Part shown: positions 9,152 to 62,387 of the stretch, piece by piece | Layout: each line of letters begins with the position of its first letter | Numbering within the stretch: position 1 is the first letter of the stretch | Translations under genes and position numbers: made by a program | Assembly (NCBI RefSeq): GCF_010993965.1 | Contig: NZ_WIXM01000021.1 | Span: forward strand, 1 to 62,815 | From: Gracilibacillus sp. YIM 98692 | Lineage (GTDB): Bacteria; Bacillota; Bacilli; Bacillales; Amphibacillaceae | DNA: 62,815 nt | Direction of reading: 5' to 3' | The notes under the pieces: model-generated | Databases searched by the model: none | The model's input: the letters and a program-made list of their open reading frames with translations, nothing else | Told to the model about the DNA's origin: nothing

Positions 9152-9396
9152 TATTCGCTTAACTAAATAGATCACTAGGAGTAACTGGATAAAACGATAA
9201 GTGTCATTTTTATTGTATTTCTTATTGATTTGGTATTTATTCAGCTGTTAAGTACCAAGTTTATGAGATCTAGTCTTGATTTTGGCACTTATCACCGTTA
9301 TAAGTGCCATTTTTGGTCGTATGGTTATTCATTTTGGTACTTAATGGTGGTTTAAGTACTATCTTGACAAAGTACTTTTTTATTTTGGTACTTAAC
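9152..9396 (+). repeat. Dispersed structured repeat family A, copy 2
   Basis: This copy starts with the shared TTATTCGCTTAACTAAATAG and ends at GGTACTTAACC, so it lacks the 3' third of copy 1. The TGGCACTTAT/ATAAGTGCCA hairpin is perfect here, whereas copy 1 has one G-U/mismatch change, in line with selection on or origin from a folded element. Confidence 0.85.
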
Positions 9397-9404
9397 CAGT
9401 AAAA

Positions 9405-9774: not shown

Positions 9775-10626
9775 TTGAGCCAATCCTCCATTTGTTCTGA
9801 AGAAGTGCAGAATCGTGAAGCATTAATCTTCGAAAACAACTGTACAAAAGTCGAGAACGTTCTCACGGTCCCAAAAATTATTTGTCCGGGTGAAACGTTC
9901 ACTTTAGATATATTTATCAAGATCCAAGTATGCTGTTCACCAGGGAGCTTTGGATTAATAACTGTAGATGATTTAACAGGGGAGGTCAATGGTCCAGCAA
10001 GGATAACAGGTTTTGAGGCTACTGGAACCCCTGATTGCCAAACTGGATGCCCAAGCGGCTCAGTCAATGGTGCTATTTCACCAGATGGAAAACTAATTTT
10101 TCTTTCATTTAGTGATTTTTTTGTTGAGTGCTTCGGGTCCGGTGATGAAGATCTTGTAGAATCTAAGTGTTGTTTAGTACAGGTTCAGTTAGTAGCAGAT
10201 GAATCTACTGGCAATGGCATTGAGCCAATTAATTTTGACGTAAGGGCTCATGGTTTTGCTGATTTATCTCCAGGCGCTGGTGGACCGTTTTCGAATGAAT
10301 ATAATCTAACTTCAACGATTGAAACTTCACTAGTTCCTTCCAACCATCCGTGTTGCCGGGAGAACCCGAATCCTTCCATCACTTGTCCTGACAATATCAC
10401 TGTTAGAAATGATCCTCGAAAAAATGGTGCGATTGTCCACTATCCGGACCCTATAGTATCGGACGACTTTCCGGGAGTGACCTTTTCCTGTGAACCGGCA
10501 TCAGGCTCTTTTTTTCCGATAGGGGAAACAACGGTCACATGTACTGCTACGAATGTTGGGGGTTTTACAGCGGAATGTACATTTATAGTGAGGGTGGTTG
10601 CTGATCCTTGTCGGTTGCTGTCTTGA
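9775..10626 (+). CDS. Cysteine-rich HYR-domain protein
   Basis: The TTG start at 9775 follows AAAAGGATG. The 283-aa product has no signal peptide or membrane segment. Residues 1-200 form a cysteine-rich region (pairs such as QVCCSPG and SKCCLVQ) that I do not recognise. Residues 202-276 form a hyalin-repeat (HYR) domain with CPDNITV, F.P.GET.VTCTAT and AEC.F.V.V motifs. The last seven residues are DPCRLLS, identical to the tail of the giant protein at 15.3 kb. A leaderless Cys-rich protein in a spore former could belong to the spore surface, where disulfide cross-linking is common; this is inference. Confidence 0.8.
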   Translation: MSQSSICSEEVQNREALIFENNCTKVENVLTVPKIICPGETFTLDIFIKIQVCCSPGSFGLITVDDLTGEVNGPARITGFEATGTPDCQTGCPSGSVNGAISPDGKLIFLSFSDFFVECFGSGDEDLVESKCCLVQVQLVADESTGNGIEPINFDVRAHGFADLSPGAGGPFSNEYNLTSTIETSLVPSNHPCCRENPNPSITCPDNITVRNDPRKNGAIVHYPDPIVSDDFPGVTFSCEPASGSFFPIGETTVTCTATNVGGFTAECTFIVRVVADPCRLLS

Positions 10627-10637
10627 AATAAAAATTA

Positions 10638-10698
10638 AAACAGGAAACCTGTCTATAGATGATATTTTTAATCCATCACAGATGGTTTCCTTTAAATT
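10638..10698 (+). terminator. Terminator shared with the 15.4-kb copy
   Basis: AGGAAACC and GGTTTCCT bracket a structured loop and are followed by TTTAAATTTTTT. The same sequence, including CAGGAAACCTGTCTATAGAT, follows the other DPCRLLS-ending gene near 15380. The duplication therefore extends beyond the coding region. Confidence 0.75.
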
Positions 10699-10730: not shown

Positions 10731-11435
10731 TTAACCTGGGAATATGACCGGACATTGAGGTGGTAAATTATCCTGTGGACAACGATTATCGGTGATTAAG
10801 TCTGAACGTGGTTGACACATGTCTGCTGGTATCTCTATTGTTACGATGCTTTTGACTTGGACACTTTGACAGATGTTAATGGAAACATCAACTTGTTGGA
10901 ATGTTTGCTCTCCTTCATTATCTAAGGTGCATGTAATATCTGCGTTACACTCAAAGTCGGTGATTTCACATTGTATAAAAGTGCCTGCCGGAGCACAAAG
11001 GAAAAACGTTTCTGCAACGGTAAATGGTTGTGGTACTGATGTGCAAGATTCCCCTCGAGCGTTTGTAATTCGAACGACAAAAAATCCCTTTTTTAATACG
11101 CTGACTTTTTGCAGTGTAATCGTTTCTCCTGTCGAAAGCCTCACATTTATATCTTCACGTCCATCAAATGATGTCATTTCTGAACATACGATCGATTCTG
11201 AGGGTAATTGATCAATATGGTTACCAGTTTCATCTGTTAGGAAACATTCCGCCGTTACTTGACCACCTGGAACTTGCTCATTTACTTGATCACAATTAAG
11301 ATCGAGCGTTTCTAAACCAGAAAATCCAACAAAACTTTGATCTGGAATTTCAACTGATTGAACCACCCAATCATAGACTTTTGGAACCTTGATACAAATT
11401 GTTTCCTGTTTTCCTTTCATATCATAGAAATGCAT
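10731..11435 (-). CDS. Cysteine-rich protein with ICIKVPKVYDWV motif
   Basis: This 234-aa protein is encoded divergently from the giant propeller gene. It has no signal peptide. Near the N-terminus is ETICIKVPKVYDWVVQSVEI, a signature I associate with Bacillaceae spore-coat/exosporium-type hypothetical proteins. The rest is beta-rich with about a dozen cysteines and a QCPVIFPG end. Its neighbours on both sides are also leaderless Cys-rich proteins, so the three may contribute to one surface structure. The family name is uncertain. Confidence 0.75.
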   Translation of the reverse strand: MHFYDMKGKQETICIKVPKVYDWVVQSVEIPDQSFVGFSGLETLDLNCDQVNEQVPGGQVTAECFLTDETGNHIDQLPSESIVCSEMTSFDGREDINVRLSTGETITLQKVSVLKKGFFVVRITNARGESCTSVPQPFTVAETFFLCAPAGTFIQCEITDFECNADITCTLDNEGEQTFQQVDVSINICQSVQVKSIVTIEIPADMCQPRSDLITDNRCPQDNLPPQCPVIFPG

Positions 11436-11729: not shown

Positions 11730-14700
11730 ATGTCGAATACAGATGAAAGCCAAAAGTTGACCGTAGATACATTTGAACGGATACCCACTTATTTTGTGCC
11801 GAATATTGGCCGGATGGAAGATGAGTTTATTTATTATTATATGCAAGGATCTGGATGTGCGGTCTATTTCACAACTGAAGAGATCCGCTTTTTGTTTTTG
11901 GAGACTCCCCCACGTACTAGAGAAGAAGGTCAGAGTCGTGAAGATAAATGTAATTTGGAAGAGCCAGCCAAAGAAGTTCAAGTATTTCGTATAGATTTTC
12001 GCTTCCTTCATGCAAATAAAGGAGTCAAACCTGAAGGAAGGGGAGAAATGTCTGGTAAAGTTAACTATTTCAAAGGAAATGATCCTTCAAAATGGCATAC
12101 GAATATTTCTGTCTTTGATAAAGTAGTCTATCCTGACCTGTGGCCGGGGATTGATCTCGTATTTCGAGGGGAAAATGGCCAAATCAAGTATGAGTTTGTG
12201 GTGCATTCTGGTGCGAAAGTGGAAGATATTCAATTTACTTATGACGGGGCAAAAAATATAGATTTAGACGAGGAAGGAAATTTGTTGATTGATACTCTCC
12301 TCGGGCAGATGCGTGATGAACGGCCGGTTAGTTATCAGGAAAAGGATGGGCAACAGGTATATTTGGAGAGTTCCTTTCAACTGTTGCAGAATGGTAAAGG
12401 GGAAGATGTGATTCATTTTAAGATAGCGAATGATTATGATTCTCGCTATCCACTCATCATTGACCCCGGTCTTATTTATTCCACCTATCTTGGCGGAACC
12501 AGTGGAGACTCTGGCGCAAGTATTGCAGTAGATGCCCTGGGGAACGCCTATGTCACAGGGAGTACCAGCTCGTTGAATTTCCCCACAACCCCCGGCTCCT
12601 TTGATATTTCACTCAATGGAAGTTCTGATGCATTTGTCACAAAATTTAGTCAAGATGGAACCACTCTTATCTATTCCACCTATCTTGGTGGGACCAATAG
12701 TGACTCTGGCGCAGGTATTGCGGTAGATACCCTGGGGAACGCCTATGTCACAGGAGGTACTACTTCATCGAATTTCCCCACGACACCCGGAGCATTTGAT
12801 ACTTCGCTTAGCGGGAGTAGTAACGCTTTTGTTACGAAGCTTAATTCTACAGGATCCATGCTTGTTTATTCTACTTATCTAGGGGGAGGAGGAAGTTTTG
12901 GACTTGCTGAAAGGGGCACTTCTATAGATGTAGATCCCATAGGTAATGCCTATGTTGCAGGAGTTACACCCTCAAATATGTTCCCCACGACTCTTGGCGC
13001 TTTTCAGACCGTTTATGGGGGTTCTGTTTTTGACGCCTTTGTCACAAAGTTTAATCCAACAGGCTCAGCCCTCGTTTACTCCACGTACTTAGGTGGAACG
13101 GGAGGTGATGAAGGTAATGGTATTGCTGTTGATGCGGCAGGAAATGCTTATGTCACTGGTGAAACTACCTCTCCAAATTTCCCCACGACTCCGGGTGCCT
13201 TTGATACCACATTTAATGGGAGTTTCGATGCCTTTGTCACGAAGCTTAACCCTGCAGGCTCTGCGCTAGTCTATTCCACGTTCTTAGGGGGAACTGAATT
13301 AGATGAAGGTAATGGTATTGCTTTAGATAGTGACGGTAACGCCTATGTCACAGGGTTTACTAACTCTCCAAATTTCCCCACGACTCCTGGCGCCTTTGAT
13401 ACTTCTCTTAGTGGTAGTGACGCCTTTGTCACGAAGCTTAACTCTGCAGGCTCTGCGCTTATATATTCCACTTATCTAGGGGGATCCGGTGGTGAAAGAG
13501 GAAATTCTATTGCGGTGGATGCTGAGGGAAATACCTACGTAACGGGGTTAACCAGCTCAACCGATTTTCCGACGGAGAATCCTTTCCAACCAGCACTTGC
13601 AGGACTTAATGATGCATTTGTGACGAAGCTGAGTCCGGATGGATCTTCTCTCATCTACTCCTCCTACCTAGGAGGCGGAGGGTTAGATAATGGTAGAGGT
13701 ATTGTAGTGGATGCCCTTGGAAACGCCTATGTTACTGGTGGTACTGACTCGCCGAGAGCTCGACCAATTGACCTCACGATAGGGGACTTTAACAATGATG
13801 AGATTCTCGATCTTGCGGTAGTTAATCAAGAAACGGATGATGTCTCGATCTTGTTGGGAAATGGGGACGGCACCTTCCAGGCTGCCATGAATTTCGGGGT
13901 AGGGAATGAGCCAACAGGTATCACAACGGGGGACTTTAACGGTAACGGAAACCTTGATCTTGCGGTGACCAATCAATTTTCTGATAATGTGTCGATCTTG
14001 TTAGGGAACGGGGACGGTACCTTCCAGGCTGCCATGAATTTTGGAGTGGGCAGTTCACCAACAGGTATCACGGCAGAGGACTTTAACGGTAACGGAAACC
14101 TTGATCTCGCGGTGGCTAATCAAGGTTCTGATGATGTCTCGATCTTGTTGGGAAATGGAGACGGCACCTTCCAGGCCCCTATGAACTTCGGAGTAGGGAG
14201 TGGTCCAAGAGGCATTACGACAGGGGACTTCAACGGTAACGGGGTCCTTGATCTCGCGGTGGCCAATCAAAGCTCCAATAATGTCTCGATCTTGCTAGGG
14301 AACGGGGACGGCACCTTCCAGGCCCCTATGAACTTCGGAGTAGGGAGTGGTCCAAGAGGCATTACGACAGGGGACTTTAACGGTAACGGGGTCCTCGACC
14401 TCGCAGTAACTAATCAAAGCTCCAATAATGTCTCGATCTTGCTAGGGAACGGGGACGGCACCTTCCAGGCCCCTATGAACTTCGGAGTAGGGAGTGGTCC
14501 AAGAGGCATTACGACAGGGGACTTTAATGGTAACGGAAACCTTGATCTAGCGGTAACCAATCAATTTACCGAGAATGTATCAGTCTTGTTGGGGAACGGA
14601 GACGGCACCTTCCAGGCTGCCATGAACTTTGGGGTTGGAGATATCCCGGTTGCCATCACGACAGAGGATTTCAACAGTGACTTGAACCTTGATCTCGCAG

Positions 14701-15314
14701 TAGTCAATCTAGGTTCAAGTAGTGTTTCGATCTTGCAAGGGAATGGGGATGGCTCCTTCCAGACTGCGAACAATTTCTCGGTAGGTGTTCCTTTTCCCAC
14801 TGTGAATGCTTTTCAATCCACATTTGGAGGAGGTGGCGGGGATGCCTTTGTCACAAAAATCGGTCTCATTTGTCCAGATGATATCACGGTGAACAATGAT
14901 GATGGTCAATGTGGAGCGATAGTCAGCTTTTCTTCTCCACTTGGTGCTATTTGTACGCCGGCTTCTGGGGCATTTTTTCAAGTAGGAACCACTGAAGTGA
15001 TTTGTACAGAAGGAAATCAATCTTGTTCTTTCTTTATTACCGTCCTTGATAATGAACCGCCCACGATTACCTGTCCTGACAACATTACGGTTAGAAGTGA
15101 TCCAAGAAGAAATGGTGCCATTGTCAATTATGCGAGTCCTACGGTAACCGACAACTGTCCTGGAGTTACCTTCTCTTGTACACCAGCCTCCGGTTCTTTT
15201 TTTCCTATAGGAGAGACACTTGTTACGTGTACTGCAACAGATGCTTCGGGTAATACAGCTGAATGTAAATTTATAGTGAGGGTGATTGCTGATCCTTGTA
15301 GGCTACTGTCTTGA
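11730..15314 (+). CDS. SBBP/FG-GAP nested double-propeller protein with HYR tail
   Basis: This giant 1194-aa protein has no signal peptide. Residues 1-245 are an N-terminal beta-rich domain of the kind that precedes SBBP repeats. SBBP blades begin at about residue 250 (YSTYLGG...GNAYVTG...FPTTPGAF...DAFVTK). Six are complete. The seventh starts as YSSYLGGGGLDNG...TDSP, is interrupted at residue 680, and resumes at about 1021 as FPTVNAFQSTFGGGGGDAFV. The interruption is seven FG-GAP/VCBS repeats of 49 aa (IT.GDFNGNG.LDLAV.NQ...VSILLGNGDGTFQ), with Ca-binding-type D-x-N-x-N-x-x-D loops. Two HYR domains follow (about 1046-1110 and 1113-1187), then the terminal DPCRLLS. AAAGGGA precedes the ATG. 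Known propellers of these families bind ligands or surfaces; the location, possibly on the spore, is inferred. Confidence 0.9.
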   Translation: MSNTDESQKLTVDTFERIPTYFVPNIGRMEDEFIYYYMQGSGCAVYFTTEEIRFLFLETPPRTREEGQSREDKCNLEEPAKEVQVFRIDFRFLHANKGVKPEGRGEMSGKVNYFKGNDPSKWHTNISVFDKVVYPDLWPGIDLVFRGENGQIKYEFVVHSGAKVEDIQFTYDGAKNIDLDEEGNLLIDTLLGQMRDERPVSYQEKDGQQVYLESSFQLLQNGKGEDVIHFKIANDYDSRYPLIIDPGLIYSTYLGGTSGDSGASIAVDALGNAYVTGSTSSLNFPTTPGSFDISLNGSSDAFVTKFSQDGTTLIYSTYLGGTNSDSGAGIAVDTLGNAYVTGGTTSSNFPTTPGAFDTSLSGSSNAFVTKLNSTGSMLVYSTYLGGGGSFGLAERGTSIDVDPIGNAYVAGVTPSNMFPTTLGAFQTVYGGSVFDAFVTKFNPTGSALVYSTYLGGTGGDEGNGIAVDAAGNAYVTGETTSPNFPTTPGAFDTTFNGSFDAFVTKLNPAGSALVYSTFLGGTELDEGNGIALDSDGNAYVTGFTNSPNFPTTPGAFDTSLSGSDAFVTKLNSAGSALIYSTYLGGSGGERGNSIAVDAEGNTYVTGLTSSTDFPTENPFQPALAGLNDAFVTKLSPDGSSLIYSSYLGGGGLDNGRGIVVDALGNAYVTGGTDSPRARPIDLTIGDFNNDEILDLAVVNQETDDVSILLGNGDGTFQAAMNFGVGNEPTGITTGDFNGNGNLDLAVTNQFSDNVSILLGNGDGTFQAAMNFGVGSSPTGITAEDFNGNGNLDLAVANQGSDDVSILLGNGDGTFQAPMNFGVGSGPRGITTGDFNGNGVLDLAVANQSSNNVSILLGNGDGTFQAPMNFGVGSGPRGITTGDFNGNGVLDLAVTNQSSNNVSILLGNGDGTFQAPMNFGVGSGPRGITTGDFNGNGNLDLAVTNQFTENVSVLLGNGDGTFQAAMNFGVGDIPVAITTEDFNSDLNLDLAVVNLGSSSVSILQGNGDGSFQTANNFSVGVPFPTVNAFQSTFGGGGGDAFVTKIGLICPDDITVNNDDGQCGAIVSFSSPLGAICTPASGAFFQVGTTEVICTEGNQSCSFFITVLDNEPPTITCPDNITVRSDPRRNGAIVNYASPTVTDNCPGVTFSCTPASGSFFPIGETLVTCTATDASGNTAECKFIVRVIADPCRLLS
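13767..14789 (+). repeat. Seven tandem 147-base repeats encoding FG-GAP blades
   Basis: Seven in-frame units of 147 bases (49 codons) lie within the propeller gene. Units 3 to 5 are almost identical at DNA level over long stretches (GGCACCTTCCAGGCCCCTAT, GTAGGGAGTGGTCCAAGAGG), which implies recent amplification or gene conversion. The outer units are more diverged. Confidence 0.9.
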
Positions 15315-15377
15315 AAATCCTAAAGCGAATCATTTTTACCACAATAAAGATACACCTCACCTAGTGAGTACCTAAAA

Positions 15378-15440
15378 TTTAAACAGGAAACCTGTCTATA
15401 GATATTTGATTCATCATAGAAGGTTTCCTATATTATATAT
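15378..15440 (+). terminator. Terminator of the propeller gene
   Basis: AGGAAACC and GGTTTCCT form the stem, with the same intervening sequence as the terminator at 10638-10698. Confidence 0.75.
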
Positions 15441-15626: not shown

Positions 15627-15945
15627 TAGAAGACTGGATTTATAAATCGATTTTTAGAACTTTGTAACATAAATGGTTTGTATTCGCATAACTCAATAGA
15701 TAAAGAGTAACTGGATAAAACGATAAGTGTCATTTTCATTGTATTTCTTATTGATTTGGTATTTATTCAGCTGTTAAGTACCAAGCTTATTAGTTCTAGT
15801 CTTGATTTTGGCACTTATCACCGTTATAAGTGCCATTTTTGGTCGTATGGTTATTCATTTTGGTACTTAATGGTGGTTTAAGTACTATTTTGACAAAGTA
15901 CATTTTTACTTTGGTACTTAACCTTGTGATATTATCAACAGCAAA
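15627..15945 (+). repeat. Dispersed structured repeat family A, copy 3
   Basis: This copy carries the core plus the CCTTGTGATATTATCAACAG 3' extension and stops there. It also shares about 55 bases of upstream sequence (TTATAAATCGATTTTTAGAA and flanks) with copy 4, so the mobile or amplified unit is longer than the core. Confidence 0.85.
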
Positions 15946-17090: not shown

Positions 17091-17447
17091 TTGCTTTTAG
17101 TAGATATAACCTTGGTATTTAACGGAAAAAGTAAAGTGATTGAGAATATGGTGCTAGATACAGGAGCTGCTAGAACTCTTATAAGTCAAAATGTTGTTGA
17201 AGATATTGGTCTACAGGTTGATTTACATGATAGAATTGTCACCTATTTTGGTGTTGGTGGCAAAGAACATGCCTTTAGAAAACAAGTGGATCAAATTCAA
17301 ATCAGCGGTTTTACTGTTGATGAAATTGAGATAGATTTTAATGATTTTGGTTATGACGACATTAACGGATTGCTTGGATTAGGTTTGCTAATGAGAGCAG
17401 GATTTACAATAGATTTATTGCATTTACAAATGGACAGGACCATCTAG
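17091..17447 (+). CDS. Retropepsin-like aspartic protease, start disrupted
   Basis: The 118-aa readable frame contains VLDTGAARTLIS, the D-T-G-A active-site loop of single-domain retropepsin-like aspartic proteases, and a later GLLGLGLL flap/psi-loop motif. The family acts as a homodimer. The only start for this frame is a TTG at 17091 with a poorly spaced AAGGA. A better start, ATG 17067 after AGGAG, is in the same frame but meets TAA at codon 7 (17085). Homologues, as I recall, begin about eight residues earlier. The gene is therefore either restarted at TTG or newly inactivated. Confidence 0.75.
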   Translation: MLLVDITLVFNGKSKVIENMVLDTGAARTLISQNVVEDIGLQVDLHDRIVTYFGVGGKEHAFRKQVDQIQISGFTVDEIEIDFNDFGYDDINGLLGLGLLMRAGFTIDLLHLQMDRTI

Positions 17448-17652: not shown

Positions 17653-18271
17653 AAGACGTGATTTATAAATCGATTTTTAGAACTTTGTAACATAAATGGT
17701 TTGTATTTTCTTAACTTAATAGATAACTTTTTAGGGGTAACTGGTGATAAGTGTCATTTTCATTGTATTTCTTATTGATTTCGTTTTTATTCAGCTGTTA
17801 AGTACCCAGTTTATTAGATCTAGTCTTGATTTTGGCACTTATCACCGTTATAAGTGTCATTTTTGGTCGTGTGGTTATTAATTTCGGTACTTAATGGTGG
17901 TTTAAGTACTATTTGGACCAAGTACTTTTTTATTTCCGTATAGGAAAGCATAAATTGTTAGCAAGGAAGCAATTTCGACGTAGTGGACAATTTTAGGAAT
18001 ATAGATAAGGGCAACTACGTCTCTGACTTCACCAAAGGCTCGTCAATTGACGAGTTTTCTTTACACTATCAGAATTTATAAATGTTTTAAGGTTGATAGT
18101 ATAAGTAAAACTAAGGCTTTCGCCATTCAGACTTGGCGATAAGCCAAGTTTTTCTTTATGGCACTTAACCTTGTGATATGATCAAAAGCTTGATCAGTTA
18201 ATTGAAAACACATGAACAGGGAATTTAAGTCCTTTTCTTCAATAAGAATGATAAGTACCCTTCTTTATTGA
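17653..18271 (+). repeat. Dispersed structured repeat family A, copy 4, interrupted
   Basis: The 5' part runs from the shared upstream flank to CTTTTTTATTTCCG (17937). Repeat sequence resumes at GCACTTAACC (18161) and continues through the same 3' end as copy 1 (CCTTCTTTATTG). About 224 unrelated bases interrupt it. This shows that the 3' third is an integral part of the repeat rather than a chance neighbour. Confidence 0.8.
17937..18160. mobile_element. Miniature insertion nested in repeat copy 4
   Basis: About 224 bases without a reading frame. The ends, CCGTATAGGAAAGC and the complement of the right end (CCATAAAGAAAAAC), match at about 10 of 14 positions, like imperfect terminal inverted repeats. 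Inside are three hairpins: CTCGTCAATTGACGAG, ACTTGGC/GCCAAGT, and ACTATC/GATAGT. A MITE derived from an IS is likely; target duplication is not clear. Confidence 0.5.
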
Positions 18272-19722: not shown

Positions 19723-19958
19723 AGTGTCATTTTCATTGTATTTCTTATTGATTTCGTTTTTATTCGGCTGTTAAGTACCAAGTTTATTAGATCTAGTCTT
19801 GATTTTGGCACTTATCACCGTTATAAGTGTCATTTTTGGTCGTGTGGTTATTAATTTCGGTACTTAATGGTGGTTTAAGTACTATTTTGACAAAGTGCTT
19901 TTTTATTTTGGTACTTAACCTTGTGATATGATCAACAGCTTGGTCAGTTAATATCAAA
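19723..19958 (+). repeat. Dispersed structured repeat family A, copy 5 (5' truncated)
   Basis: This copy starts at TAGTGTCATTTTCATTG, lacking the first ~70 bases of the unit, and runs through the hairpins to GATCAACAGCTTGGTCAGTT. The left boundary coincides with the CCTGTCAC half-site, suggesting that half-site was involved in the deletion. Confidence 0.8.
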
Positions 19959-52018: not shown

Positions 52019-52243
52019 TATTTGATTTTCTTTTTACATCCTATTTTGTATTAAATATTATTCTAATAGGGGAATTTTTGTGACATTATGTGAAATAGTG
52101 AACAAAGATTTGTGGCAAATATAATTGGAGTTGAGAACCATAAATGCGTATATATGGTAGAATAATGCCGAATTATATTATAATGATAACTATTGAATTT
52201 TTAGTAGTAAATTAGAATTAGGTCTAAAGAATAGGTGACGAAT

Positions 52244-55200
52244 ATGAAAACTGTAATTGAAAAATATCAATCTATCTCTCCAACTATAGATTATTTAAAC
52301 GATCAAATTGTCTTGGCACAAGCATGGAAAAAATCACATACCTATATAAGAGGTCATAATTGGTATTTTGATATGTTAGACCTTGATAGCTCTGCTGTTA
52401 ACATCAAAGAGCTGCTTAAAGAGTGGTCTAGTGAAATTAGTAATGGATATAAGACCAATCCAATAAAAATGGTACTTGCCCCTAAATCTCAAAGGTGGGA
52501 GTTTGTTGGTAAAGATCAGTGGAAACCAGTGGTTAATGAAGAACATGATAAAAACAAGGACAACATTCAGGAATTACGTTCTCTCGCACATATATCTATT
52601 AAAGATCAAACTGTATCAACAGCAGTAATGTTATGTTTAGCAAATGCCGTAGAATCTGCTCAAGGAAAACCCGATGAAAATAACTTTTTAAAAGAACAAA
52701 AAAACGAAATGTATAGTTACGGAAATCGTTTGCAATGTAATTGGCTTGTTCATAAGAATAAGAAAAAGCAAGCTCAGTTTAGTTGGGGAAGTTCCAAATG
52801 TTATCGAAAATATTTTGAAGATTACCGCTATTTTTTAAGCAGGCCAAAAAAAGTATGTGATTATTATGCACCAACTCTTTCATCCAGTGAAGAATTGTTT
52901 GTCGTATGTTTAGATTTAAGTAAATACTTTAATAGTATTGAAATACCCGCATTAATAGATGAACTTAAGCATTTATACCAAGAATACGTAAGAGATTTTG
53001 ACTTATCGGATAATATACAAGATAACGAAGAGTTTTGGAATAAGGTGGAACAAATTTTTGATTGGGATTGGTCGGAGGAAGATAAGAAACAAGCACAAAA
53101 TGATAAAATAACTTCATTGGGATTACCACAAGGACTTGTAGCTAGTGGATTTCTAGCAAATGCATATTTAATTAGGTTTGACCGTTTAGTTGGTGAACAA
53201 ATTAAAGAGGAAGAAACAAAAAAGAATATTCAAATTCTTGATTATTGTAGGTACGTAGATGATCTTCGTTTAGTGATAAAGGTTTCTGGTAAAAAGAGAG
53301 TTGAAGATATTGAAGATGAAGTATCTGCTGTTATACAAAATTTTTTAGAGAAACATTTAACAAAAATAAACGCTAAGACGAAACAGATAGAAATAAATGA
53401 GGAAAAAACAAAAGTAATACCGTATCGCCAGTTATCTACTAATAGTAGTATTACATCTAATATGGAAGCGATTCAACATCGAATAAGTGGAACACCAGAT
53501 AAAGAGGAGCTACAACAGGTTATCACAGAGTTGACAGGTTTATTAAGGTTAGCTGATACATTGGAAGAAACAAGTGATGGCAAAAAATCTAATGATTTAG
53601 ATCTTTCACGTATTGCATTACCTGAAACAGATATTCGGGATGACACCATGAAACGTTTTAGCGCAACAAGGCTAGTAAAAACTCTACAATCACGAAAAAG
53701 CTTACTAGTACATGATAAAAAGGTAGTGGAAGATAAGATTGCTGAAACATCGATTACTGCTGAAGAGTTTCTTGATCAAGAATTTGAATCTGGGGCAAGG
53801 CGATTAATTGCAGCATGGTCTAAAGATCCATCACTCATATTACTATTACAAAATGGATTTGAATTATACCCGGATCAGAAACTACTAGGGCCTGTTTTGG
53901 AAGCATTGAGATCAAAGTTAGAAAGTCCAAGTTATGATCAGAGAAAAACAGCGGAATTCGTACTATCATATCTTTTAAGATCTGCAGCAATATATATAGG
54001 TTTTAAATCGAGAGATAATTACCCTAAATCTGTTGATATTTCTACTTTTCGTTCTGAACTTGGTTCTTTTGCAAAAAATCTAATGAATAATTATCGTGAT
54101 TTGCCTTGGTACGTAAAACAGCAATCTATCTTATATTTATTAACTAACAAAGATTATGGTTTTACAATAAGCAATGACAAAGAGTTAAAATCATATCGCT
54201 TATTGTACGATGCTGCATTGTATCATACATATAATAATAAAGTAACAGAAAGATTAACTGCTTCTTTTATTGCACAACAGCTAAATGCTAATCGAGAAAA
54301 ATATACTACTTGGTTTATTGATATGCTAGATCAAGTTAAAGATAAGACACAACAAAAATTGATAGATCTAATAAGAATGAATCGTCCTGATTTATTTCAG
54401 CAAATTTTAAGAATGAACAGAGTGAAACATAAAAAGTGGTACAAATTCGTACCAAGAGCACTTATAGACTCTCTATCATGTGAAGTTAATATGGATCATA
54501 CTTTAATTAATAACATGAAGTATTCATTTGTAAATATTATAAAAAATAAAAACAATCCATTTAAACAGGAGAATGCGTTACTATTATTAGCTACGAAGTT
54601 ATTAGATAAAGATAATATTAACTACCTTCAAGATAATAGATACAAAATTGAAAATATTAAGATAGAATGTAATGATTGGAAAAAGGTACAGAATCCAACG
54701 TATAAAGGCTTAACAGTTAAATGGAATAAGCAAATGGATGGTAAGAATGAATCATTTGAAATACCATCTTGGATCGAGGAAGAGTATGAATGGATGTATA
54801 AATTAGGAGCTATTTTAAGAGCAGCTTTTGTAGGGGAATTTGATTTCACTGCGCACACTTACCTATATAGAGGAGACATGGGAATATACAAAGGGATTAA
54901 ATCAAATTCTTATACAAGGTCTTTTTCCCTTATTAATCATGGTAAAGGAATAACAGGAGAAACTATGCCAATTACACCATGGCTTAGTGAATTTTTGTAT
55001 ACTTTATTGCAGTGGCCCGGTATTAATCAATGGGAAAAGGAAATTGAAGACTGGCATTTGGTTTCCAAACCAGAAGATTTAAACGATATCATTGAGAAGA
55101 GAATATCTCATCAGGCCAAAATGTATGGGGAAATGTCAGATCTCCCTACTTACTCAATACCAATTAGACAATATACTCTAGATGAAAGATCGAAGTTGCG

Positions 55201-56077
55201 ATTTGCAATTGTACAACCAATGCTACCGCAAATGAAGGATTTTAATATGAAAGATCCAACGAGTTGGACGGAAGAATATCGAAAAATACAACGTGATCAT
55301 TTAGCATCAATGTGCCACCTAATTTATAAACACGTACAGGCTACAGCTAGTGCTAGAAAGGTTATAGAAAAGGGTAACGATAAGGATATCGATAAGCTAT
55401 TAGGTGTGGATATTATTGTGTTTCCAGAGCTATCTATTCATCCCGATGATGTTTTCCTTTTAAGAAGGTTATCCAATATAACGGATGCACATATCTTTGC
55501 TGGATTAACATTTCAACATTCTACTTCTTTTGCAAAACCTGTCAATCAGGCACTATGGCTTTTAAGAGATAGAGACAGTGCTGGAACAGATATTATTGAA
55601 GTGAAACAAGGAAAATATAATATGACAAAAGAAGAAGCATCAATGGGGATTCAGTCTCACAGGCCATACCAGCTTATTGTAGAATTACAGGGAAAAAATA
55701 AAGATCCAATTCGGTTATCTGGATCCATATGTTATGATGCTACTGACTTAGCGATTGCAGCTGACTTAAAAGATATAACAGATGTCTTTGTAGTAGCGGC
55801 TTTGAATAAAGATATTAATACTTTTGACAATATGGTTGCGTATTTACATTATCATATGTATCAACCAGTGATTTTAGCAAATACAGGAGAGTTTGGTGGG
55901 TCATCAGTTCAGGCTCCTTTTCGAGACCACCATCAGCGGACTATAGCACACGTTCATGGAAATCAACAAATTGCAATTAGTTTATTTGATATTGACCCGA
56001 CTATATTCAAGAAAGAATCCAAGCCAATTTCTCATGGGGAATTAAAAACACCACCAGCTGGATTTAATGGAAGATAG
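52244..56077 (+). CDS. Reverse transcriptase-nitrilase fusion (UG1/DRT type 1 defence protein)
   Basis: ATG 52244 follows AGGTGACG. The 1277-aa protein starts with an RT domain. D224 (VCLDLSKYFNSI) and Y337-V-D-D340 (YCRYVDDLRL) are the catalytic carboxylates, and LGLPQGLVASGFLA lies between. A long helical middle region (about 420-950) follows. The C-terminal nitrilase/CN-hydrolase domain has E1062 (VFPELSIHP), a likely K1124 (KQGKYNMTKEE) and C1163 (SGSICYDATD). RT fused to a C-terminal nitrilase is the hallmark of the UG1/DRT type 1 anti-phage group. Both active sites look intact. An ncRNA partner may lie in the 225 bases upstream, but none is evident. Confidence 0.93.
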   Translation: MKTVIEKYQSISPTIDYLNDQIVLAQAWKKSHTYIRGHNWYFDMLDLDSSAVNIKELLKEWSSEISNGYKTNPIKMVLAPKSQRWEFVGKDQWKPVVNEEHDKNKDNIQELRSLAHISIKDQTVSTAVMLCLANAVESAQGKPDENNFLKEQKNEMYSYGNRLQCNWLVHKNKKKQAQFSWGSSKCYRKYFEDYRYFLSRPKKVCDYYAPTLSSSEELFVVCLDLSKYFNSIEIPALIDELKHLYQEYVRDFDLSDNIQDNEEFWNKVEQIFDWDWSEEDKKQAQNDKITSLGLPQGLVASGFLANAYLIRFDRLVGEQIKEEETKKNIQILDYCRYVDDLRLVIKVSGKKRVEDIEDEVSAVIQNFLEKHLTKINAKTKQIEINEEKTKVIPYRQLSTNSSITSNMEAIQHRISGTPDKEELQQVITELTGLLRLADTLEETSDGKKSNDLDLSRIALPETDIRDDTMKRFSATRLVKTLQSRKSLLVHDKKVVEDKIAETSITAEEFLDQEFESGARRLIAAWSKDPSLILLLQNGFELYPDQKLLGPVLEALRSKLESPSYDQRKTAEFVLSYLLRSAAIYIGFKSRDNYPKSVDISTFRSELGSFAKNLMNNYRDLPWYVKQQSILYLLTNKDYGFTISNDKELKSYRLLYDAALYHTYNNKVTERLTASFIAQQLNANREKYTTWFIDMLDQVKDKTQQKLIDLIRMNRPDLFQQILRMNRVKHKKWYKFVPRALIDSLSCEVNMDHTLINNMKYSFVNIIKNKNNPFKQENALLLLATKLLDKDNINYLQDNRYKIENIKIECNDWKKVQNPTYKGLTVKWNKQMDGKNESFEIPSWIEEEYEWMYKLGAILRAAFVGEFDFTAHTYLYRGDMGIYKGIKSNSYTRSFSLINHGKGITGETMPITPWLSEFLYTLLQWPGINQWEKEIEDWHLVSKPEDLNDIIEKRISHQAKMYGEMSDLPTYSIPIRQYTLDERSKLRFAIVQPMLPQMKDFNMKDPTSWTEEYRKIQRDHLASMCHLIYKHVQATASARKVIEKGNDKDIDKLLGVDIIVFPELSIHPDDVFLLRRLSNITDAHIFAGLTFQHSTSFAKPVNQALWLLRDRDSAGTDIIEVKQGKYNMTKEEASMGIQSHRPYQLIVELQGKNKDPIRLSGSICYDATDLAIAADLKDITDVFVVAALNKDINTFDNMVAYLHYHMYQPVILANTGEFGGSSVQAPFRDHHQRTIAHVHGNQQIAISLFDIDPTIFKKESKPISHGELKTPPAGFNGR

Positions 56078-61281: not shown

Positions 61282-62205
61282 TTAACTAACATCATAAGCC
61301 ATGTTAATTAGATGTTTAGCTTTTTCTATATCTTCATCATTAGAAATAACAACTTCTAAATCTCCTGTGCCGTAATGCCCTATATTAGTAACATCACGGG
61401 TAAAGCCTTGTTCTAACGTAATTGTATCGGGCTTAACCTTTAAATAAAGTAATATCTTTGCAGTTTGCGGATGTATTTCTACACAAGCAAAATTTTTAAT
61501 CCGTTTAAATGCTATGTAATGTTTAAGGATTTTCGTTTGTACATCATCACCGAGAGCCATCATATAGGCTTTTAACGTTTCAAATCTATCGGTTAATTCC
61601 GTATTAGCTTGCTCTAAGTAATCAGATACCGTTTTTACTTTTGTATTTTTATTTGTTGGCGTATTAACAGTAACTTCATCACTAATATGTACGGTTTGTG
61701 CAGTTGTAGCATTAACTAAATCAAGTAGAATAAAGCCATCATTATAATGTTTGTATTGGTAAAGTTCTATATTTCTATTTATTTGCTGTACGGCGTGTTC
61801 ATCATATTTAGTAAAACCGCCTGCAATACAAAGTAAACGGGGACTACTCCAATCAATAGCGTCTGCAACGGTTTCCCCGTACTTCCGTAATATCATAAGT
61901 TCAAATTCTGCTTTATGGTCAAGTAACCAATCTAAGTAGAATAGCCCTTGATTAATTACATTTTCGTTAATTGAACGCTTATATTCAATAATTACGGGTG
62001 AGTTATTTTCGTCAATACCTAACGTATCAATACGTCCAGCATGTTTTTTGCCCGTACTATATTCAGAAGCTAAAAAGCGAACACCTAAAAATGTTTCTAA
62101 ATGCCGTTCAATAATATGTTGAAGCGACTTTTCTATTGATACTGATTGCCCTTCTAATTCATCAACGCTATCTCCGTTTAACCTAAAAAGTTTTATATCA
62201 CCCAA
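61282..62205 (-). CDS. PD-(D/E)XK nuclease-like, DUF5655 domain protein
   Basis: TTG 62205 is chosen because AAGGAGG lies at normal distance; an in-frame GTG three codons earlier overlaps that site. The 307-aa protein has an N-terminal restriction-endonuclease-like core (AGRIDTLGIDENNSPVIIEYKR, the D...E-x-K pattern). A C-terminal domain (IKNFACVEIHPQTAKILLYL, GHYGTGDLEVVISNDEDIEK) matches DUF5655 as I recall it. The substrate is unknown. It is the first gene of a two-gene minus-strand operon in a phage-like region. Confidence 0.82.
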   Translation of the reverse strand: MGDIKLFRLNGDSVDELEGQSVSIEKSLQHIIERHLETFLGVRFLASEYSTGKKHAGRIDTLGIDENNSPVIIEYKRSINENVINQGLFYLDWLLDHKAEFELMILRKYGETVADAIDWSSPRLLCIAGGFTKYDEHAVQQINRNIELYQYKHYNDGFILLDLVNATTAQTVHISDEVTVNTPTNKNTKVKTVSDYLEQANTELTDRFETLKAYMMALGDDVQTKILKHYIAFKRIKNFACVEIHPQTAKILLYLKVKPDTITLEQGFTRDVTNIGHYGTGDLEVVISNDEDIEKAKHLINMAYDVS

Positions 62206-62387
62206 AATACACACCTCCTTAACTATCCTTAATTATATCACCATAAAATAACAAAATCTTCCTTATCGTTATTTTAGTTCGGTTTTTTCGTGTTTCTCCC
62301 TATTATAAATGTGCGAAGATAATAGATTTTTTTGTATAAGTAATAGGGCGTTGTTTGCCTTAATACTAAACTACGGGGGAATTAACG

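Follow-up and report, generated by a model that had tools for sequence, protein, structure and literature searches.

EML TAPE comprises two propellers, one blade of which is assembled from two sub-domains distant in sequence (PMC4761370), and the propellers of CPSF160 and DDB1 do not form a linear tandem, with three discontinuous regions of CPSF160 building bP3 (PMC5760199; these and the other reports cited here are drawn on in part). Insertion of a whole domain in a propeller is exemplified by the integrin alpha I domain and by the sialidase of V. cholerae (PMC3192720, PMC2716378), and CylK (7fh6) combines an N-terminal domain with a seven-bladed propeller carrying long internal loops (PMC8916777). 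SBBP repeats are named, in the available part of PMC8078820, among the repeat families for which models were made in the absence of a known structure. Here we analyse a stretch of 62,815 nucleotides from Gracilibacillus sp. YIM 98692 (contig NZ_WIXM01000021.1; hereafter the window), in which one gene probably encodes a two-propeller matryoshka protein, with a seven-repeat FG-GAP array nested in the b-c loop of the last SBBP repeat.

A split SBBP repeat and its guest

The gene and its two upstream neighbours are organized as follows (window positions):

9775..10626, + strand: DUF4360 and HYR neighbour gene, with the same C-terminal tail, ADPCRLLS
10731..11435, − strand: divergent neighbour gene for a BMQ_0737 family morphogenetic spore coat protein (NCBIfam NF052457, 222 bits, cut-off 71)
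11730..15314, + strand: nested-propeller ORF, 1194 aa
11793..12467, + strand: DUF7948 N-terminal domain, residues 22-246 (Pfam PF25778, 3.4e-63)
12477..13655, + strand: SBBP repeats 1-6, residues 250-642
13656..13754, + strand: SBBP repeat 7, first half, residues 643-675, predicted strands a and b of blade 7
13758..14786, + strand: guest of seven 49-aa FG-GAP_3 repeats, residues 677-1019, predicted as seven a-b-c-d blades with no velcro
14790..14861, + strand: SBBP repeat 7, second half, residues 1021-1044, rest of the b-c loop and predicted strand c
14868..15311, + strand: HYR (Ig-like) region, residues 1047-1194, ending in ADPCRLLS

Pfam recognizes seven stretches of SBBP (PF06739; 2.6e-58, 194 bits against a gathering score of 20.5) and seven of FG-GAP_3 (PF13517; 4e-54, 181.5 bits against 26.9) in the 1194-aa protein. 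The HYR region appears by eye to consist of two domains, with one stretch, residues 1107-1185, passing in Pfam (2.6e-17). An HMM built from the six intact SBBP repeats of the protein recovered the seventh in two pieces, profile positions 1-33 at residues 643-675 (iE 1.8e-15) and positions 34-57 at residues 1021-1044 (iE 1.9e-6), the break falling exactly at position 33/34. The count of seven SBBP repeats, six whole and one split, made in a preliminary description of this DNA is thereby borne out, and so is its claim that seven FG-GAP repeats of 49 aa separate the two halves: the guest advances in steps of 49 aa and measures exactly 343 = 7 x 49 aa. The cut falls in the b-c loop of SBBP blade 7, the velcro blade. 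The 70-nt junction regions, compared by script, have no identical stretch of ≥6 bases in common; thus, no duplication is seen at the insertion site.

Homologues lacking the guest segment, proposed in the preliminary description as a check, were found. In the alignment of 24 uninterrupted homologues (A4, taken from 35 rows listed), all 24 span both halves of SBBP repeat 7, covering 0.97-1.00 of residues 643-675 and 0.92-1.00 of residues 1021-1044, with the guest as a gap (guest columns filled to ≤1% in each). By the profile break and this empty-site alignment, the host repeat is broken by a complete guest array and then resumed. Seven is the usual number of SBBP repeats in DUF7948-SBBP proteins: among 40 ORFs, counted without copies of the locus itself, ORFs with no DUF7948 or with <3 SBBP hits, arrays truncated by the end of a locus and duplicates, 33 have seven hits, 5 have fewer (6, 4, 4, 4 and 3) and 2 have eight, the extra hit in both arising only from one repeat split by a short loop. 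Short insertions in the same b-c loop occur in L016 and L019. The preliminary description had set a simple tandem against nesting; the order is nested in the 1194-aa protein, but tandem order does exist elsewhere, in L164 (G1166), which likewise combines DUF7948, seven SBBP repeats and an FG-GAP array in a single chain but as a plain tandem, with SBBP and FG-GAP ~170 aa apart and five FG-GAP hits by our own HMM.

The architecture with an FG-GAP guest was found in one genome and in 0 of 16 congeners, so the insertion could be young or without function, although its frame is intact. Five further nested candidates (G1264:C23, G1311:C7, G1456:C468, G1179:C212 and G1176:C38) were discarded, each being a plain array of either FG-GAP or SBBP repeats. 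Phage records yielded 2 matches, covering just 26% and 19% of the query, none of 81 plasmid records had a place covering 80% of it, and one scan of viral contigs returned no relative.

Predicted fold, closure and origin of the two rings

For structure prediction, two alignments were discarded before folding, A1, which put FG-only rows on SBBP columns, and A2, which put SBBP rows on FG columns; row sets were then tried by local MAFFT until A3 and A4 were clean, the choice being made on alignment coverage before any model was obtained. In A3, SBBP homologue rows are cut before the last half and hold no homology information on strand c. The AF2 model with guest rows (A3) contains seven complete a-b-c-d FG-GAP blades at residues 679-1017 (block pLDDT mostly >93) and predicted blade-7 strands at 652-660 (a), 666-673 (b), 1038-1044 (c) and 248-254 (d), strand 1038-1044 still being formed, in blocks with pLDDT 50-64, without homologue rows there. 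With rows over the last strand, AF2 places a strand at 1037-1044, and pLDDT rises to 80 for residues 1021-1030 and 87 for 1031-1040. On the structural check proposed earlier, the two models are complementary, with the seven guest blades in one and the SBBP-7 strand in the other; neither predicts both with high confidence (pTM 0.54 and 0.57). The pairing of blade-7 strands suggested here is read from AF2 secondary structure, in which strand 248-254, at the start of the SBBP array, is taken to be the outer strand (d) of that blade.

Taken together, the exact profile break, the empty-site homologues and the AF2 strands support the nested reading, in which, as claimed earlier, the closing SBBP blade carries an entire FG-GAP propeller in one of its loops. 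The SBBP propeller would close with strands a and b (652-673) before the guest, c (1038-1044) after it and d (248-254) from the array start. The guest would form a closed disc made up of seven blades with four strands each, and its ends should lie close together, allowing the chain to pass out of the host blade and back via short linkers of ~5 aa on one side and ~20 aa on the other, the latter presumably the native SBBP loop. The long b-c loop would hold a second disc, which probably binds Ca and whose sequence contains DxNxxGxxDL-type loops, with the HYR modules C-terminal. Such a protein could have arisen when an ordinary DUF7948-SBBPx7 gene took up an FG-GAP module.

Should the SBBP ring instead close at six blades and a half, or stay open, the FG-GAP disc and trailing half would be mere appendages along the chain. 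The low pLDDT of the trailing strand in the A3 model (50-64) and the tandem protein L164 fit such an arrangement, but we regard it as unlikely: the trailing half picks up at exactly the next profile position, its strand reaches pLDDT 80-87 once homologues cover the region, strand 248-254 should need a blade-7 partner, and seven blades are the usual count. Still less likely is an assembly chimera or a decaying gene, in which a misjoin or chance insertion would yield no stable protein. Occurrence in one genome, a draft assembly of 69 contigs, the 147 bp repeats and the dispersed repeats flanking the locus on both sides would suit such an origin, whereas the frame stays open over 1211 codons with no stops, the insert is an exact multiple of its repeat, the cut lies in a loop, and other guests occupy the same loop elsewhere.

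All 13 free-standing FG-GAPx7 arrays examined (e.g., L072; seven are from one genus) start with a d strand and have no d in the last repeat. The nested guest shows the reverse pattern and has no velcro closure of its own. Within the guest, FG repeats 4 and 5 share 95% DNA identity, and short-read assembly could in principle have altered the copy number. A foreign origin suggested by composition was not used as an argument: GC3 is 0.551 in the guest against 0.369 in SBBP repeats 1-6, but the difference shrinks at fourfold sites (0.534 against 0.425 in the rest, p 0.016, the sites not being independent) and gives p 0.07 when tested per repeat.

CylK was the best Foldseek match of both models (22-26% identity, target TM-score 0.51-0.53), a loose one, with an rmsd of 14.0-15.2 and, in a second run, of 13.7-15.9 for 4 of 5 chains and 4.2 for 7fh6. 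The A4 profile did not find the CylK chains, only ten designed Pizza propellers and a kinase over ~20 residues, and the 1194-aa sequence used alone returned no match. The long internal loops of the CylK propeller may be the counterpart of the SBBP b-c loop.

Neighbouring genes and a candidate spore-surface role

The end of the nested-propeller ORF resembles that of the DUF4360 and HYR neighbour (78% identity between 10378-10628 and 15066-15316). Sites resembling those of sigma-K, counted with a motif that we take to represent them, occur at chance level (5 on the + strand, where shuffled sequences give 6.2 per strand), with none just upstream of 11730. Three of the four proteins scanned carry a BMQ_0737 domain; in L081 and L084 it is joined to SBBPx7, in L066 to FGx7. 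The fourth, L074, gave no match, and an NCBIfam scan up to E 0.1 found no NF052457 domain in the 1194-aa protein. Besides SpoIVA, the genome contains three matches that score above the BMQ_0737 cut-off; the neighbour gene accounts for one. In B. megaterium, BMQ_0737 is described as one of the outermost proteins of the spore (PMC4656864). Because both the neighbour gene and the fused relatives carry this domain, a spore-surface role is our best guess, and we somewhat favour a location of the nested-propeller protein at the spore surface, where it may act as a structural or adhesive protein.

The nested fold could instead belong to a secreted or cytosolic sensor or enzyme, with the DUF7948-SBBP part perhaps enzyme-like as in CylK. 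We consider this a serious but less likely possibility: CylK, the best match by fold, places its active site where the N-terminal domain meets the propeller (PMC8916777), and the SBBP protein L207, from another phylum, looks exported by eye; against it stand the BMQ_0737 neighbour and fusions and the looseness of the CylK match.

Other nested guests and described multi-propellers

An Asp-box array occupies the same SBBP b-c loop in 13 fetched proteins (L207 and L238-L249), which share with the Gracilibacillus protein an SBBP host with one repeat split around a guest array. They differ in guest type and in position, the host blade being 2-6 rather than 7, and their genomes come from the phylum to which the Acidobacteria-titled genome of L017 belongs. 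The guests have 5-7 motifs, with 299-354 aa between the HMM hits flanking the split repeat, and the one in L207 is Pfam Sortilin-Vps10; seven SBBP blades and DUF7948 are each present in 12 of the 13. These proteins suggest that nesting of a propeller in a propeller occurred more than once. The SBBP b-c loop is probably a general landing site for whole propellers, accepting at least 2 unrelated guest types (FG-GAP in a spore-former and Asp-box in that other phylum) in several blades, a recurrent bacterial architecture undescribed within the literature searched.

A ring inserted in a strand-strand loop of a second ring tests how far closed propellers tolerate interruption and provides a natural scaffold by which two discs can be held in a fixed mutual arrangement. 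Since empty-site homologues, free-standing guest relatives that close differently and a second guest type are all available, the insertion event is open to modelling and test. More broadly, the locus points to a modular set of proteins, likely of the spore surface, in which SBBP, FG-GAP, HYR and BMQ_0737 domains occur in varied combinations.

In the literature searched, mostly without subscription papers, "SBBP repeat" and "FG-GAP" were not found together, and phrasings for nested or inserted propellers returned matches unrelated by title and abstract start. The preliminary description knew of no described protein with such nesting, a statement that gives way to the 13 Asp-box proteins and, in the available parts of PMC4761370 and PMC5760199, to discontinuous multi-propellers. 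The latter differ in being eukaryotic: EML TAPE is a WD40 protein whose discontinuous blade is described as unrelated to WD40 repeats, with no mention, in the available part of PMC4761370, of a repeat interrupted by an entire foreign array, and the propellers of CPSF160 and DDB1 are of WD40 type (PMC5760199). CylK is an alkylating enzyme without a guest propeller, its own N-terminal domain being a Ca beta-roll (PMC8916777). The guests of integrin and V. cholerae sialidase are not propellers, and the integrin insertion lies between blades (PMC3192720, PMC2716378). The nesting of FG-GAP in SBBP is therefore not unique in kind, discontinuous multi-propellers being already known from EML, DDB1 and CPSF160.

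Architecture of the probable nested-propeller protein

According to Pfam, the nested-propeller protein carries a DUF7948 domain, 7 SBBP stretches, 7 FG-GAP_3 stretches and HYR.

11730-15314 (+): nested-propeller ORF, 1194 aa
Residues 22-246: DUF7948 (Pfam)

The SBBP repeats start at residues 250, 315, 380, 450, 515, 579 and 643. The SBBP profile HMM was derived from the 6 intact repeats of the same protein, with repeat 7 excluded, and the match of repeat 7 is thus not circular: HMM positions 1-33 correspond to residues 643-675 and positions 34-57 to residues 1021-1044, past the insert. Residues 677-1019 are the FG-GAP array, with exactly seven 49-aa units. This bears out the preliminary description, in which SBBP repeat 7 was proposed to be split around exactly 7 such FG-GAP repeats. 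A nested architecture, with the FG-GAP array as a guest within the DUF7948-SBBP host, is probable.

Two AF2 models were obtained from complementary alignments, A3, which covers guest and host but has no homologue rows over residues 1021-1044, and A4, which covers the host including 1021-1044 but has no guest homologues. In the A3 model, pLDDT is 78-98 (mostly >93) over the guest block 681-1020, mostly 87-97 over host blocks 261-610 and 70-89 over 611-680; the strand 1038-1044 is present, in blocks of pLDDT 50-64. The A4 model reaches pLDDT 80 for 1021-1030 and 87 for 1031-1040, but stays <50 across most of the guest. Thus, of the 2 closed propellers anticipated earlier, the 7 guest blades (A3) and strand c of host blade 7 after the insert are both predicted, although high pLDDT for the two is split between A3 and A4. 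Judging from strand assignments, residues 679-1017 of the guest would form 7 blades, each with strands a-b-c-d, and blade 7 of the host would comprise strands a (652-660), b (666-673), c (1038-1044) and d (248-254). With a and b before the guest and c after it, the cut would fall between strands b and c, in a loop of the velcro blade, whose strand d is supplied by the array start.

Hosts without the guest and apparent recurrence of the nesting

Homologues lacking the FG-GAP segment, a search for which had been suggested, do exist: all 24 homologue rows of A4 (24 of 35 listed) cover both halves of repeat 7, with the guest as a gap. The SBBP arrays of loci L047, L048 and L042 are continuous, with no guest; L042 (genome G059) is 59% identical over residues 227-615, its DUF7948 and SBBP parts lying in different reading frames. 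Seven is the usual SBBP count, found in 33 of 40 ORFs, with 8 hits in 2 ORFs via a split repeat and fewer in 5. A simple tandem order among homologues, which would speak against nesting, is represented by L164, where SBBP and FG-GAP follow each other.

Nested cases were sought among 61, 397, 398, 17, 398, 26, 297 and 98 genomes of relatives, in overlapping sets and with different queries. No second FG-GAP guest was seen among the matched loci scanned by HMM and 17 fetched stretches, a negative that for the 26-, 297- and 98-genome samples rests on the matches listed. In L201/L207 (G1449, from the phylum of the Acidobacteria-titled L017 genome), 305 aa cut SBBP blade 4 in the same loop. This insert matches Sortilin-Vps10 (40.8 bits versus the Pfam cut-off of 33) and contains 7 Asp-box motifs, counted in L208 (same protein) with an Asp-box pattern. 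Among 98 relatives of G1449, at least 8 genomes have matches that extend from one SBBP half across the guest into the other half. A split SBBP repeat is present in 12/12 further loci (L238-L249), which were picked for matching, so that the fraction says nothing on frequency; 5-7 Asp-box motifs are followed by a DAFVAKLN-like strand c, and 299-354 aa separate the HMM hits, in some loci including the unrecognised second half. Twelve of the 13 Asp-box loci (L207 and these 12) have 7 SBBP blades in total, and L240 has 5; L248 gives no DUF7948 hit. By sequence, the Asp-box arrays appear to interrupt SBBP blades 2-6 at the b-c loop, and L016 and L019 carry shorter insertions in the same loop.

Guest relatives and possible spore-surface context

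Free-standing FG-GAPx7 arrays begin with a d strand (e.g., TTFDVG) and their last repeat stops after strand c (13/13 examined, the comparison covering these 13 only, 7 of them from one genus). By contrast, strand a comes first in the guest and strand d last. Given these opposite ends, the guest is a circularly permuted version without velcro. FG-GAPx7-HYR proteins are encoded at L072-L078 and L080, and those of G575 are the closest free-standing arrays among the relatives listed (58-62% identity). From their motif, the FG-GAP loops may bind Ca.

10731-11435 (divergent neighbour, 294 bp away): spore coat protein of the BMQ_0737 family (222 bits)

Of 4 proteins scanned, 3 carry the BMQ_0737 domain as a fusion, L081 and L084 with SBBPx7 and L066 with FG-GAPx7; the domain was not found in the fourth, L074. 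The Gracilibacillus genome contains SpoIVA and 3 BMQ_0737 matches over the cut-off, including the neighbour. In Bacillus megaterium, BMQ_0737 counts as one of the outermost proteins of the spore, according to excerpts of PMC4656864. Collectively, these observations favour a structural or adhesive role at the spore surface, a location that we regard as somewhat probable. Sigma-K-like sites are no more frequent than by chance (5 on the + strand versus 6.2 per strand in shuffles). The BMQ_0737, SBBP, FG-GAP and HYR proteins look as if surface modules had been shuffled among them. The HYR tail is duplicated in 2 HYR genes (10378-10660 and 15066-15403, 251 nt at 78%), accompanied by a 30-nt terminator-like stretch (97% identity).

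Copies of a dispersed element of ~200 bp flank the spore-coat/propeller locus on both sides:

2317-2513: dispersed element
9201-9397: dispersed element
15727-15923: dispersed element
17751-17935: dispersed element
19724-19920: dispersed element

Identity to the copy at 9201 is 93-96%, and the predicted fold of one copy is more stable than that of shuffled sequences (z -4.9); the element resembles a small non-coding repeat of mobile or REP-like type. The window also encodes a DRT1a-type defence reverse transcriptase with a nitrilase part (52235-56077 (+), 1424 bits), a candidate defence protein, PDC-S18 (61282-62214 (-), 500 bits), and a small ORF (17091-17447 (+)) matching retropepsin-like aspartyl protease families.

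Comparison with known propellers

Discontinuous multi-propellers are already described, as far as the excerpted sources go: the EML TAPE domain builds one blade from 2 distant stretches (PMC4761370), CPSF160 and DDB1 depart from linear tandem topology (PMC5760199), and non-propeller domains are inserted in propellers (PMC3192720, PMC2716378). The earlier remark that no described protein with this nesting was known is thereby narrowed: among the papers listed, we found no description of a whole repeat-array propeller inside a blade loop of another family's propeller, with empty-site homologues and recurrence. Foldseek ranks CylK, a known propeller-containing enzyme, first for both AF2 models, with a loose match (rmsd about 14-16 in all chains but one, 7fh6, at 4.2; target TM-score 0.51-0.53; identity 22-26%). 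CylK was absent from the results of sequence searches with the nested-propeller protein or an A4 profile. Long internal propeller loops of CylK fold back over the outside (excerpts of PMC8916777), and the modelled DUF7948-SBBP part loosely resembles this Friedel-Crafts alkylating enzyme.
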